A stretch of DNA of 64,000 bases from Natronorubrum thiooxidans (GTDB lineage Archaea > Halobacteriota > Halobacteria > Halobacteriales > Natrialbaceae): contig NZ_FTNR01000006.1 in NCBI RefSeq assembly GCF_900156475.1, positions 62,001 through 126,000 on the forward strand, in the 5' to 3' direction. The notes under the pieces were generated by a model. It ran no database searches. It had not been told where the DNA came from and saw only the letters and a list, made by a program, of their open reading frames with translations. The position numbers were made by a program, and so were the translations under genes. Shown here piece after piece: positions 44,864 through 50,334 of this stretch (position 1 is the stretch's first letter; each line of letters opens with the position of its first letter).

Positions 44864-46207
44864 TTACTCTTCTTCCTCTGGCGTGTCGTGGGCGTCGCTG
44901 TCTGTCCGCCGACTGACATCGACCTGGTAGTTCTCGAGGATGTCGCGGCCGAGGATGACAGGATAGTCCATGTGACTGCGGTCTTCGACGCTTGCGGTGA
45001 CGGTGTGTTGATTCCCACCGACGCCGACGACGACGTCGACGACAGGGCGGCTCTTGGCCGTCTTGCTGCTGCCGGATCTGATCCGGGTGATAGACTTGAT
45101 CGGGCCGGCTCCGATGTCGGCTGCGAGACCGGTGTCGATGCTCGTCCGCGTCGCACCGGTGTCGGATTTGGCCATCACGGACTTCGAGCCGCTGGTTCCC
45201 GAGAGGACGATCTCTTCGGTGTAGCCGATCACGGTTGGTTCCGTGTCGGATTTGGACGACCGACTCGGCTGGGCCGTCGGTCTGGAGTCGTCGAGGACGT
45301 TCGAGAGCTCCTGGACGCGTTCATCGTCGACCTCACCGCCAGCGCTCTCGATCGCGAGCTTTGCGATGTAGGGAGCCGGGCTGACGTGGGTTGCCTCGTA
45401 CAGTCCCTTGAATCCAGCCGTCGGATTGACCTCGAGGACGAACCAGCCGTCGTCACCTTCGACGAGATCGACGCCGGCGTAGTCGAGCCCGATAGCCTCG
45501 GATGCTTGACGGGCCATCTCCCGGGCCTCCTCGGGGAGGTCGTCGGTCGCGTTTTCGACGGAGCCGCCGAGTGCGACATTGGTTCGCCAGTCGTTGTCGG
45601 GGGCGTAGCGGTACATCGCGCTGATGATTTCGCCGCCGACGACGTAGACGCGAACGTCTCGGTGCTCGGCACCGTCGCGGTCGATCAGCTTCTGTAAGAA
45701 CGCGTATCGGTTTCCGACTTTCGCGTTGACCGGTTCCTCGGTACCGACCTTCCACGTACCGCCGCCGTGGGTGCCGATTGCCGTCTTGTAGACGGCCTCC
45801 TCACCGTACTTACCGCGTGCGGCGTTGAGTTGTTCGCTGTTGAGAGCGAGCGTGACGTCGGGGGTCTGGACGCCGTTCGCTGCGAGTGTCGTCGCCGTCG
45901 AGAGCTTGTGGATCGCCGTCAGAACCGTCGACGGCTCGTTGAGCATCGGCATCAGCTGTGCGAACGTGTTCGCAAGCCCGAGTTCCTCGGCGGGCTGTTC
46001 GGTGTTCGACAACAGCATTCGGTTCGCGATGACGTCGACATCCGGCTCGAGGACGACGTCGCCGTCAGTGACGCTGACGGCGGTGTTCTCGTTGCGAAGC
46101 CATTCGGTATCGTGACCCAGTGCCTCGACCGCGTTCAAAATCGCTTTCGTCTCTTTGCTCGTATGAAGGCTCAATACCCCAACAGTGACAGGATCTGCAA
46201 CAGCCAT
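44864..46207 (-). CDS. RimK-like ATP-grasp glutamate ligase fused to a RimB-like retropepsin domain
   Basis: A 447-residue two-domain protein. Residues about 1-300 are an ATP-grasp ligase of the RimK/LysX/CofF family: ATP loop KTAIGTHGGGTWKVG (141-155), the acidic metal site VLEVNPTAGFKGLYEA (Glu259, Asn261). Residues about 325-432 are an aspartic-protease-like retropepsin domain of the RimB type (putative zinc protease family PF05618): KSDTGATRTSIDTG with DTGA at 349-352 and DYPVILGRDILENYQVD. The tail is acidic (DTPEEEE). RimK adds glutamates to a protein end or to F420; RimB removes them in the bacterial RimABK system. One chain holding both is the notable feature. ATG 46207 is supported by a TATA-like CTTTTTG about 28 bases upstream; the 36 further codons are not homologous. 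Confidence 0.85.
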   Translation of the reverse strand: MAVADPVTVGVLSLHTSKETKAILNAVEALGHDTEWLRNENTAVSVTDGDVVLEPDVDVIANRMLLSNTEQPAEELGLANTFAQLMPMLNEPSTVLTAIHKLSTATTLAANGVQTPDVTLALNSEQLNAARGKYGEEAVYKTAIGTHGGGTWKVGTEEPVNAKVGNRYAFLQKLIDRDGAEHRDVRVYVVGGEIISAMYRYAPDNDWRTNVALGGSVENATDDLPEEAREMARQASEAIGLDYAGVDLVEGDDGWFVLEVNPTAGFKGLYEATHVSPAPYIAKLAIESAGGEVDDERVQELSNVLDDSRPTAQPSRSSKSDTEPTVIGYTEEIVLSGTSGSKSVMAKSDTGATRTSIDTGLAADIGAGPIKSITRIRSGSSKTAKSRPVVDVVVGVGGNQHTVTASVEDRSHMDYPVILGRDILENYQVDVSRRTDSDAHDTPEEEE

Positions 46208-46436
46208 ACCGAGTTGCAGGGCGACATAGGCAAAAAGGATACTGTCATCGGAACCGACAGATAACTGAGAGGTCGTGTCGCTTGATCGCCCGACGGCAGC
46301 CCGATCGGCGGACATGCTATGTGGATTGGTATCCTATCAAATATCACGTCAGATGTGGATTCGCTGGCCGGCCGTGGTAACTCCACAACCCAGTGAAAGC
46401 TCCCGGTGACAGTGAGAGTCACTGACACGGTCCGTT

Positions 46437-47906
46437 CTAGGTCATCGCCGAGCGGACATCTCGTGGATCGACCAGCCCGCTCGCGACGGCGAGGATCGCC
46501 CACGTCAGCGCACCGAGCGCGATCGCCCCAATCAACATCAGGGGACTCGAGACCAGCGGCGTCACGAGCAACACGGCGAGTGCCATCACACCGGTGATTC
46601 CACAGATCAGTCCCATCGATCGACCGAGTCGACGAAGCCGCAGAGACAGCTCCGAGTGGACGATATAGAGGTTCACTGCCACGTACACCGAATGCGTCGC
46701 GACTGTCGCGATCGCCGCGCCGACGACGCCGACCGTCGGGATCAACACGAGATTCAGGCCGAAGTTCGCTGCGGCCGTCCCGCCTTTCGCGACGGCTCGC
46801 GATCGCGCGCGGCCGAGATAATCCAGGCTGTCGCTGGTCAGGTTCGTAATCGCCTGCAAAACGATGAAGACGGCGAGAACCTGCAGGACGGGGACCGCAC
46901 CCGCATAGTCGGTCCCGAAGACCATCGTCACGAGCGGCTCTGCGATGATGACGAGCCCAGCGGTTGCCGGAATATACAGCAACATCGTGTGTGTCAGCGA
47001 CGTCTCGTAGATCTGGCGTGCCCGCTCGAGTTGGCCCGTTGCTTTCTGCTCACCGAAGTTCGGCGAGATGGTAAAGCCGAGCGATTCGGCGGGCGCGAGG
47101 ACGAAATCCGAGATTTGTTTCCCCAGCGTGTAGAACGCGACGGCAGTCGGCGTCAGAAAGACACCGACGAGGACGGTGTCGATCTGTTTGTCGATGACGT
47201 TTGCGCTCCGTGTTGCCGTCAGCGGCACGCTGTACTCGAGCAGCCGCCGTGAGAGCCCGTCCTCGTACGTGGTAGCCGGCTCGTACTGAGTGTAGAACTT
47301 GTAGTACAACAACGTTACTCCGACGGCAGCCGAGAGGACGTAGCCGACAATATACCCGAAAAAGGCTCCCAGTGCGCCCAGTCCCATGAGTACGAACCCG
47401 ACGGCGAAGACGAGGCGAGCGACGCCGCTGATAGCCTGGACGACGGCACTGTAGACGAGGCGATTGAACCCCTGAAACGCGACCTGTGTGAAGGTGCTAA
47501 ACGAGAAGACGGTGATGTAGATGACGCCTGCCGCAAGAAACGGTGCGGCCGTCGGCTCGCCCAAGCCGATCGCGATCCGCTCGTGAAACACCAGAAGCGT
47601 ATAGCCAACGAGCGTGATGATGACGATCTTGACCGTAATCGTCGTCCGGATTAGGTGCGGGATCTGTCCTGGTGCCTTCTCGCTGTACTCCGAAAAGTAG
47701 CGGGCTGCGGACTTGCCGAACCCGAGATCCGCGACTAGCTGGAGGATCGCGAGCACCCCAATCACCCAGTACAGCGTTCCGTACCCATCGGGATCGAGGA
47801 GATATCGCGCCAGCAAAAACATCAACAGCGCACTCGAGAGCATATAGACCGCTCGAGCGACGAGCGTTGCTTTGAATCCGTGAACGATGTGGTCCTGTCT
47901 ACTCAT
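46437..47906 (-). CDS. Polysaccharide flippase (MATE/Wzx family, AglR-like)
   Basis: A 489-residue membrane protein with about 12-14 helices, typical of lipid-linked oligosaccharide flippases. The N-terminus FKATLVARAVYMLSSALLMF and KSAARYFSEYSEK are characteristic of the family. In haloarchaea such proteins move dolichol-linked glycans across the membrane for S-layer N-glycosylation. Its start overlaps the tail of a decayed upstream gene (ATGAGTAG), so it was once the second gene in an operon. No glycosyltransferase remains intact in the window. Confidence 0.85.
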   Translation of the reverse strand: MSRQDHIVHGFKATLVARAVYMLSSALLMFLLARYLLDPDGYGTLYWVIGVLAILQLVADLGFGKSAARYFSEYSEKAPGQIPHLIRTTITVKIVIITLVGYTLLVFHERIAIGLGEPTAAPFLAAGVIYITVFSFSTFTQVAFQGFNRLVYSAVVQAISGVARLVFAVGFVLMGLGALGAFFGYIVGYVLSAAVGVTLLYYKFYTQYEPATTYEDGLSRRLLEYSVPLTATRSANVIDKQIDTVLVGVFLTPTAVAFYTLGKQISDFVLAPAESLGFTISPNFGEQKATGQLERARQIYETSLTHTMLLYIPATAGLVIIAEPLVTMVFGTDYAGAVPVLQVLAVFIVLQAITNLTSDSLDYLGRARSRAVAKGGTAAANFGLNLVLIPTVGVVGAAIATVATHSVYVAVNLYIVHSELSLRLRRLGRSMGLICGITGVMALAVLLVTPLVSSPLMLIGAIALGALTWAILAVASGLVDPRDVRSAMT

Positions 47907-48320: not shown

Positions 48321-48321
48321 T
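48240..48321 (-). repeat. 82-bp palindromic dispersed repeat, copy B
   Basis: Inverted relative to copy A at 29764-29845 and exactly as long (82 bases), about 88 percent identical where compared. The 15-base ends are inverted repeats of each other. One end overlaps the first base of the GNAT stop codon, so the repeat lies exactly downstream of that gene and may end its transcript. Perfect equal length of two diverged copies suggests a unit that moves or is maintained as a whole. Confidence 0.75.
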
Positions 48322-49070
48322 TAGAGGTACGACGAGTCCCACCGCGTCGCTTTCCGCCGGTTTCCACAGGCGTTACACTCGACACGTCCCATCGCGTCCA
48401 TCGCGTTATCGATCGAGTTGCAGTTGCCACAGAGCAAAGCGTATCGGTCCGTTCGGTCCTCGTTCTTGTAGGCGCTGTAAAACGGTGCCTTTGCCCCACG
48501 GGACGCCTCACCGTAGCTCACGTAGATCGTCTCGCCATCGACCTCGAGTTCGTCGACGGCTCCCCAGCCGTCCTCGCCGGCGTCGCTTTCTGCGTAGACG
48601 TTCTCGGTAAACGTCTTTTCGCCGATCTCGACCTCGCGCTGGCCGGCCTGTTCGAAGCCGTGGTCCTGGTAGAACTCGTTGCCACCCTCGTTGTCCTCGA
48701 GGACGAGTCCCTGAATCTGGTCGGCCCCTTCATCGAGCAGTTTCTCCCGGGTCCGGACGAGCAGGCGGACGCCCGTGCCGCCACCGCGGTGGTCGGGGTC
48801 GATATGCAGCCACAGAATGCGACCGGTGTCGTATCGCTGGCCAACTAGATCGCTCTGAGAGAAGCCGACTATGTCACCGTCGCGCTCGAGCACGAGAACG
48901 AGCGAGTGGTCGGTGTCGAGTTCGTCGGCAAACGAGTCGCCGTACCACTGCTCGACTGCGTCTTCGATCGTTGCTTCCTCGAGGAAGTCGGTGTACGTCG
49001 AACTGAGCGAACGGTGGGCAATCGAGCGGATGGCATCGATGTCGGCAGCAGTTGCTTCACGAATCTCCAT
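48321..49070 (-). CDS. GNAT acetyltransferase fused to a DUF5816 zinc-ribbon domain
   Basis: A 249-residue two-domain protein. Residues 1-145 are a GNAT fold with acetyl-CoA loop DPDHRGGGTGVRLL and a C-terminal beta strand region (NEFYQDHGF). Residues about 170-249 are a haloarchaeal DUF5816 domain with paired cysteines LLCGNCNSID and ECNACGNRR, likely a zinc ribbon. The acetylated target is unknown; the ribbon may bind it. Haloarchaea often acetylate proteins, rRNA or small molecules with GNATs. The stop overlaps the repeat by one base. Confidence 0.85.
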   Translation of the reverse strand: MEIREATAADIDAIRSIAHRSLSSTYTDFLEEATIEDAVEQWYGDSFADELDTDHSLVLVLERDGDIVGFSQSDLVGQRYDTGRILWLHIDPDHRGGGTGVRLLVRTREKLLDEGADQIQGLVLEDNEGGNEFYQDHGFEQAGQREVEIGEKTFTENVYAESDAGEDGWGAVDELEVDGETIYVSYGEASRGAKAPFYSAYKNEDRTDRYALLCGNCNSIDNAMDAMGRVECNACGNRRKATRWDSSYL

Positions 49071-49233: not shown

Positions 49234-50334
49234 ATGAGCGACGATTTCGACGAGCCGCCCGACGATGGCACATCTGGTCGCATGGCTGAGGCGTTTACGT
49301 ACAACGGCGGCCGCGTTGATCCCGGCGAATCGGCGAACATCCGGTACGGTATCAGCGAAACGTATCTCGGTGATCCGGTTCGGATCCCCGTGACGGTCAT
49401 CAACGGCGAACATCCGGGACCGACCGTCTTCCTCTCGGCGGCAGCCCACGGCGACGAACTCAACGGTATCGAGGTCGTCCGTGAGGTCGCCCACGACTGG
49501 GATCACTCTGATCTCCATGGAACACTGATCTGTCTGCCCGTGATGAACGTCCACGGCTTTCTCGCACAGGAGCGGTATCTGCCGATCTACGACCGGGATC
49601 TGAACCGTTCGTTCCCCGGCCGTGAAGGGTCGACGAGCGCCCGGCGGATGGCCCACCAGATCTTCACGAACTTTATCGAACCCTGTGACCTCGGGATCGA
49701 CTTTCACACATCCACGCGCGGGCGAACGAACATGCTCCACGTTCGAGCCAACATGGAGAACCCGAAGACGGCTCGAGTCGCGAAGGCGTTCAGTTCCAAC
49801 GTCATCATCGCCGGCGAAGGCCCATCGGGCACGCTCCGGCGGGAGGCGACAGTGGCCGATATTCCGACGATCACCGTCGAGATGGGGGAGGCACATCGGT
49901 TCCAGCGGAATCTGATCGACCGCGCGCTGACCGGCGTCGCGAGCGTCCTCGCCGAGTTCGGACTCCATCCGGAGTCGTCCGTTCACTGGCCCGGTTGGCG
50001 GACCATCATCGACGACGACAACGAGAAAACCTGGATCCGCGCGGACGCGGGCGGCATCGTCGACATGAAACGCGGCCGAAGCGAGCTCGTCAAAGAAGAC
50101 GAGGTGATCTGTGCGATCACCAACCCGTTCAAAGAAGAAGAGGACATCGTCACTGTGGAAGCCCCGTTTACCGGACTGATCGTCGGCGTCCTCGAGAACC
50201 CGGTCGTCTACCCAGGGAATCCCCTATGTCACCTTGTCGGACTCTCGCCGGACACGTTAACCGCATTGGAGCGCGAGCGGACGGCCGACCACTCACAGTC
50301 GGGGCTCCAGACCGGTGACCGCCCGCCGCGCTGA
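49234..50334 (+). CDS. Succinylglutamate desuccinylase/aspartoacylase-family (AstE/AspA) deacylase
   Basis: A 366-residue zinc deacylase or carboxypeptidase-like protein. The zinc site is AAHGDELNGIEVV (His, Glu) with the second His in LGIDFHTSTRGRTNM; catalytic Glu likely in VEMGEAHRF. A C-terminal beta-rich domain (about 250-340) completes the family. Such enzymes cleave N-acyl amino acids (for example ectoine-like or N-acetyl-aspartate substrates); the substrate here is unknown. No partner gene is adjacent. 50335-50513 holds the sdh promoter region. Confidence 0.85.
   Translation: MSDDFDEPPDDGTSGRMAEAFTYNGGRVDPGESANIRYGISETYLGDPVRIPVTVINGEHPGPTVFLSAAAHGDELNGIEVVREVAHDWDHSDLHGTLICLPVMNVHGFLAQERYLPIYDRDLNRSFPGREGSTSARRMAHQIFTNFIEPCDLGIDFHTSTRGRTNMLHVRANMENPKTARVAKAFSSNVIIAGEGPSGTLRREATVADIPTITVEMGEAHRFQRNLIDRALTGVASVLAEFGLHPESSVHWPGWRTIIDDDNEKTWIRADAGGIVDMKRGRSELVKEDEVICAITNPFKEEEDIVTVEAPFTGLIVGVLENPVVYPGNPLCHLVGLSPDTLTALERERTADHSQSGLQTGDRPPR

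Follow-up and report, generated by a model that had tools for sequence, protein, structure and literature searches.

What does a single protein that unites a glutamate ligase with a glutamate-removing protease act on, and on which acceptor would its glutamate chain begin? The question is raised by one gene in a window of 64,000 nucleotides of Natronorubrum thiooxidans DNA, the whole stretch that was analysed. The initial annotation gave the coordinates of the open reading frame correctly and left its strand, which is minus, unstated; a second in-frame ATG of the gene lies at 46315. The gene, the parts of its product and a partner gene are arranged as follows.

44864..46207, minus strand: fusion gene, 447 aa, in the order RimK-family ligase, linker, RimB-type retropepsin, acidic tail.
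45308..46207, minus strand: ligase half, RimK-family ATP-grasp, residues 1-300, assigned from Pfam, NCBIfam and motifs.
45230..45307, minus strand: linker, residues 301-326, little conserved among orthologs.
44906..45229, minus strand: retropepsin half, residues 327-434, assigned from Pfam and profile comparisons.
45152..45163, minus strand: catalytic motif D349-T-G-A352, the same in 84/84 orthologs.
44867..44905, minus strand: variable acidic tail, residues 435-447, with a final EEEE-COOH, from terminal-residue counts.
49234..50334, plus strand: partner gene, an AstE/AspA-type (M14-like) hydrolase (Pfam PF24827, E 8.4e-49).

A Pfam search, which the initial annotation had proposed, places both halves above their gathering scores, PF08443 (RimK) at residues 100-274 (E 1.1e-23, 84.2 vs 21 bits) and PF05618 (Zn_protease) at residues 369-434 (E 5.1e-10, 39.8 vs 27 bits), and so bears out the claim of a ligase and a glutamate-removing protease in one chain. 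The ligase half also passes the NCBIfam model of the RimK family (TIGR00768, 159.8 vs a cut-off of 143.4 bits), and the Glu-x-Asn metal site that had been read in the N-terminal half is present as E259-x-N261. The catalytic lysine K141 and the Mg-binding D247, E259 and N261 are invariant in orthologs, and AlphaFold2 models the ligase half of the full protein mostly with confidence.

In the C-terminal half, DTGA at residues 349-352 and ILGRDIL at 418-424 stand exactly where they had been located. When this domain was compared with methanogen and bacterial RimB by hhalign, DTGA fell on DTGA with a probability of 96.6% (E 5.7e-10), and a profile search of PDB sequences matched 9g59, 2pma and 9g58 (E 2e-11 to 4e-9). 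Because of these two results the RimB-type likeness, as judged by sequence comparison, is not a product of chance. With the retropepsin domain present and the DTGA aspartate retained (the motif is invariant in 84/84 aligned orthologs), the reading of the protein as writer and eraser is supported. The RimB equivalog NF052261 gives 16.5 vs a cut-off of 200 bits, a stretch of roughly 25 residues from DTG to RPV, the flap region, is absent relative to bacterial RimB, and AlphaFold2 returns a pLDDT of about 30-37 for the protease half in monomer models of both the full protein and the half alone.

A structural model and mutagenesis of Pseudomonas RloA identified K46, R114 and R137 as polyglutamate-coordinating residues common to RimB (PMC12239564). 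Their counterparts here are K347, R387 and R410, matched by motif context (the Lys two before the catalytic Asp, the Arg of RPV and the Arg of DR) and by the two arginines lying 23 residues apart in both proteins; all three are invariant in 84/84 orthologs and in divergent paralogs. Both halves are predicted from their sequence to be catalytically competent, which we consider likely, and the fusion probably acts on polyglutamate. Two fusion paralogs, one of them on a Natronosalvus plasmid, carry a degenerate DTG, RANPA or RADPTS (L126:6746-8203 and L130:7884-9314); they retain the ligase motifs and a terminal LEE, and their protease is probably dead.

The ligase half is harder to place, as it reaches no NCBIfam equivalog among the S6 ligase, LysX, MptN and CofF models tried. 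The S6-ligase RimK model NF007764 gives 64.3 vs 331 bits, the pre-ATP-grasp domain Rimk_N (PF18030), which bacterial RimK and RimBK have, finds no match in the haloarchaeal fusion by Pfam, and the EVNSSPGLEGIE motif of S6-ligase RimK is missing, with EVNPTAGFKGL in its place. The analogy with RimABK drawn by the initial annotation is therefore only partial, as the ligase half lacks Rimk_N, falls far below the S6-ligase cut-off and lies outside the canonical RimK clade. An identity as ArgX/LysX was also rejected (TIGR02144, 114.8 vs 275.6 bits), and the other ligase-half motif is GTHGGGTW where ArgX has GSWGR. Since the ligase motifs are unlike those of both RimK and ArgX, the donor and acceptor may differ from those of either enzyme.

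A small cofactor such as F420, a pterin or folate, with the protease half serving as a scaffold or trimming the cofactor, would be in keeping with the membership of MptN and CofF in the same ligase family and with the grouping of the fusion near MptN and ArgX. We regard this as very improbable: the scores are 48.9 vs 300 bits for CofF and 127.4 vs 350 bits for MptN, neither identity being retained, Methanosarcina relatives possess a separate MptN besides their operon RimK, and the protease groove residues match those that bind peptide polyglutamate. The F420 tail, which had been listed among the candidate targets, is thus not supported.

In a tree of 49 ligases, to be read with a long-branch warning, the haloarchaeal fusions fall together with their paralogs, with ArgX of haloarchaea (92/91) and with MptN (94/86), and canonical RimK and the bacterial RimBK ligases stand apart. 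The data reject a common clade with bacterial RimBK (p = 0.012) and, weakly, one that takes in all canonical RimK (p = 0.037); they are compatible with a clade that includes MptN (p 0.36). Because descent from RimBK is rejected and the domain order is reversed, the haloarchaeal fusion probably has an origin independent of the bacterial one, and its ligase may have been of the ArgX/MptN type; this separate origin was not found in the searchable literature and looks new.

The C terminus bears on the question of the acceptor. Past the last protease strand the chain runs on for a variable 12-26 residues, of which only the final one or two are fixed as Glu: 54/55 genus-level orthologs end in Glu and 44/55 in Glu-Glu, and Asp is found at either of the last two positions in 0/55. 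A named set that largely overlaps these 55 gives E in 78/80 and EE in 63/80. The background, taken from genes of the same 55 loci (809-826 genes), is 14% ending in E and 1.6% in EE, with 16% ending in E among acidic-tailed neighbours (n = 74), in a comparison uncorrected for shared ancestry. Every complete paralog checked also ends in EE, even at about 45% identity, the shortest tails being of the type SRTVEE, and the sole exception seen among paralogs, L124, has an internal stop. Full-text literature searching found no description of this terminal Glu, which looks new as far as the searchable literature shows.

The C-terminal Glu of S6/RpsF is the acceptor for RimK, and in ArgW/LysW the C-terminal Glu receives an amino acid through ArgX/LysX; the ArgW mutation E54A results in arginine auxotrophy in a haloarchaeon (PMC10433800). 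ArgX in the window's own genome adjoins an open reading frame with a C-terminal EDWGE. Because these related systems use a C-terminal Glu, analogy suggests that the C-terminal Glu of the fusion is an acceptor for its ligase half. Self-ligation at the C terminus has been suggested for CDC123, another ATP-grasp protein (PMC4431377).

The reading that we prefer, and hold at somewhat less than even confidence, is a single chain that both writes and erases polyglutamate and brings its own acceptor, a C-terminal Glu. The ligase half would spend ATP to attach glutamate to an acceptor that ends in Glu. The best candidate is the C-terminal Glu of the enzyme itself, within one subunit or across to its neighbour, and the retropepsin half would have to dimerise to form its active site. 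RimB strongly promotes the making of free polyglutamate by RimK. It cuts runs of at least six Glu, or of five if the encoded one is included (PMC11957791), and RloA cuts eight Glu and leaves six (PMC12239564). The encoded haloarchaeal tails, mostly of 2-5 Glu, stand at or under this threshold; once lengthened by the ligase, such a tail would thus fall to the protease of the same enzyme. The short encoded tail would be spared, and one grown past about 5-8 glutamates would be clipped, resetting the tail and releasing oligo-alpha-glutamate, the terminal glutamyl bonds of which the AstE-type neighbour would then hydrolyse. We infer both activities and the length threshold of the fusion from its relatives; our proposals that the enzyme modifies itself and that AstE acts on the products are hypothetical, as is any physiological purpose, and we put the probability of self-modification by itself at about a third. 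If the enzyme does modify its own tail, a single gene would show all the steps by which a glutamate chain is begun, kept to length and taken off again, with primer, polymerase and scissors being one protein chain.

The C-terminal Glu could instead serve in docking or autoinhibition, as a pseudo-substrate that occupies the basic groove of the protease, or a ligase site, on a partner subunit and holds the enzyme inactive until substrate displaces it. The conservation of the polyglutamate-binding groove residues and the position of the tail directly after the protease domain would suit such a role, which we nevertheless judge improbable, as the two paralogs with a degenerate DTG still end in LEE and the tail is therefore not kept solely for an active protease. 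A tail of 12-26 residues with only its last one or two Glu fixed would also be more natural in an acceptor than in a clamp.

To return to the writer-eraser with its own acceptor, the survey of archaea and of neighbouring genes that had been proposed for this protein supplies its putative partner. About 176/194 Halobacteria genomes carry the full-length fusion at E < 1e-100, and the putative partner is the AstE/AspA-type gene, which the initial annotation had overlooked despite its lying inside the window, as it had the conserved terminal Glu. AstE lies near the fusion, upstream and mostly divergent, in 47/55 loci and directly adjoins it in 31. Its conserved residues are H72-G-D-E75, D156-x-H158 and E216. 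Across the 194 genomes both genes occur in 176, neither in 15, AstE alone in 3 and the fusion alone in 0 (Fisher p about 1e-19, uncorrected for shared ancestry), and in 2/3 of the AstE-only genomes, both of one genus, a truncated fusion remnant lies beside an intact AstE (G110 and G168; L240 and L241). Each of five genera contains genomes with the pair and genomes without it, which points to several separate co-losses.

As the two genes usually adjoin, one deletion could take them out together. They are, however, also co-retained where they lie far apart (for example in G029, G045 and G064), which argues that the link is functional. In Natrialbaceae a polysaccharide flippase (window 46437-47906) and a GNAT acetyltransferase with a DUF5816 tail (window 48321-49070) stand between fusion and AstE; other families have neither there. 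Several haloarchaea have two or three copies of the fusion, namely G070 and G039 (second copies L124 and L120) and G063 (L122 and L123). The pair may move together, since L122 and L123 each adjoin an AstE copy. Full-text searching found no description of the AstE link, and the coupling looks new as far as the searchable literature goes. A self-contained polyglutamate machine, in which the ligase extends its own Glu, the retropepsin clips above a threshold and AstE clears the pieces, independently of RimBK, is a possibility that we advance with reserve; about nine in ten of the sampled Halobacteria genomes keep the enzyme and its AstE partner.

The same three predicted activities are encoded together, as separate genes, in a RimB-RimK-AstE operon in 11/12 loci of Methanosarcinaceae and in modules of Salinivibrio, Acaryochloris and Vibrio, so that the RimB-RimK pair extends to a recurrent trio in methanogens and bacteria. 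The expected zinc-binding and catalytic residues are retained in the AstE of all these groups and of the haloarchaea. Unlike the fusion, the Methanosarcinaceae operon has a RimK that passes the S6-ligase model (480 vs 331 bits) and a RimB with a full-length flap region. Iyer et al. 2009, on amidoligases, reportedly surveyed such ligase operons and may have noticed the trio earlier.

Bacterial modules on Salinivibrio and Vibrio replicons adjoin MscS, MgtE or CorA genes, and the presence of MscS channels and MgtE/CorA magnesium transporters beside L132 and L137 hints at an osmotic role. Free oligo- or poly-alpha-glutamate, or an acylated form of it, might itself be the product, with no need of a protein target: the ligase would make it as a glutamate store or an osmotic buffer, the retropepsin would shorten it and AstE would break it down. 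Both in vitro and in vivo, RimK and RimB yield free poly-alpha-glutamate, and AstE/AspA enzymes act on N-acyl-Glu/Asp. RloA, moreover, is needed under hypo-osmotic stress (PMC12239564). Around the haloarchaeal gene, however, there are sdh genes and a DNA glycosylase and no osmotic theme (on a Halolamina plasmid the fusion-AstE pair lies away from sdh genes), and a free polymer accounts for the C-terminal Glu only if that residue primes it; the proposal then merges with the enzyme that extends its own tail. As a separate explanation we consider the free polymer rather unlikely.

The terminal Glu is lacking in the bacterial RimB, RimK and RimBK relatives examined, the Methanosarcinaceae RimK ends in TRGKG, and most of the RimB and AstE of that family also lack it. 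Phages, too, encode a RimK with a C-terminal PF05618 domain, with a DTGN motif, in L276:2120-3541 (Yersinia phage vB_Yru_GN1) and L281:2162-3547 (Pelagibacter phage Mosig), where they are annotated as 'structural protein' and 'putative glutathione synthetase'; neither ends in Glu, and perhaps they alter host ribosomes. Viral contigs scanned with the haloarchaeal alignment yielded no relative. A terminal Glu is no general feature of RimK-RimB fusions, being absent from these two phage proteins and three bacterial RimBK. As bacterial RimBK, the methanogen operon and the phage fusions exist without it, enzymes of these kinds can do without a self-acceptor.

Such relatives presumably act in trans, and the haloarchaeal enzyme might likewise glutamylate and trim another protein, ribosomal or regulatory, with its own acidic tail incidental. 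RpsF is a known target of RimK and RimB, and the bacterial hybrid cuts its polyglutamylated form (PMC11957791). The haloarchaeal ligase half nevertheless falls outside the canonical RimK clade, and a target in trans leaves the Glu-specific C terminus unexplained. No ribosomal S6 of the bacterial type is known from archaea, and the literature searched gave no account of polyglutamylated proteins in them. We consider action in trans unlikely, if still worth weighing against modification of the enzyme's own tail.

The initial annotation went too far in presenting the locus as a candidate for an undescribed system. The fusion itself is not new, having been known by architecture since 2008, with a bacterial hybrid characterised in 2025. 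RimK with a C-terminal DUF785 (PF05618) was noted in Halobacteria, e.g. Q5V351, and in marine phage-like contigs, with DUF785 N-terminal instead in some bacteria (Monier et al. 2008, PMC2530865). The Halobacteria proteins of that report have the same domain order as the window fusion and presumably belong to the same family, but the mention is one sentence, without function, catalytic residues, C terminus or neighbours. The hybrid RimBK DP2392 of Desulfotalea psychrophila has been purified, in a study that surveyed bacteria only (Little et al. 2025, PMC11957791).

RimBK and the haloarchaeal fusion are alike in carrying a RimK-family ligase and a RimB-type retropepsin on one chain, but RimB comes first in the bacterial protein and the ligase first in the haloarchaeal one. 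The RimBK ligase half, judged from Thioclava, is a canonical RimK with Rimk_N, and bacterial RimBK has, in the three loci examined, neither a terminal Glu nor a neighbouring AstE. The Pseudomonas RloA/RloB/RloC system shares with the fusion a PF05618 retropepsin with a polyglutamate groove and an ATP-grasp protein; it differs in that RloA is a secreted, separate chain and RloB a transmembrane inactive transglutaminase. The nearest ligase relatives in the tree, haloarchaeal ArgX/ArgW (LysX/LysW), likewise have a conserved C-terminal Glu as the acceptor, but ArgX uses a separate carrier protein for it, whereas the fusion bears a C-terminal Glu of its own.
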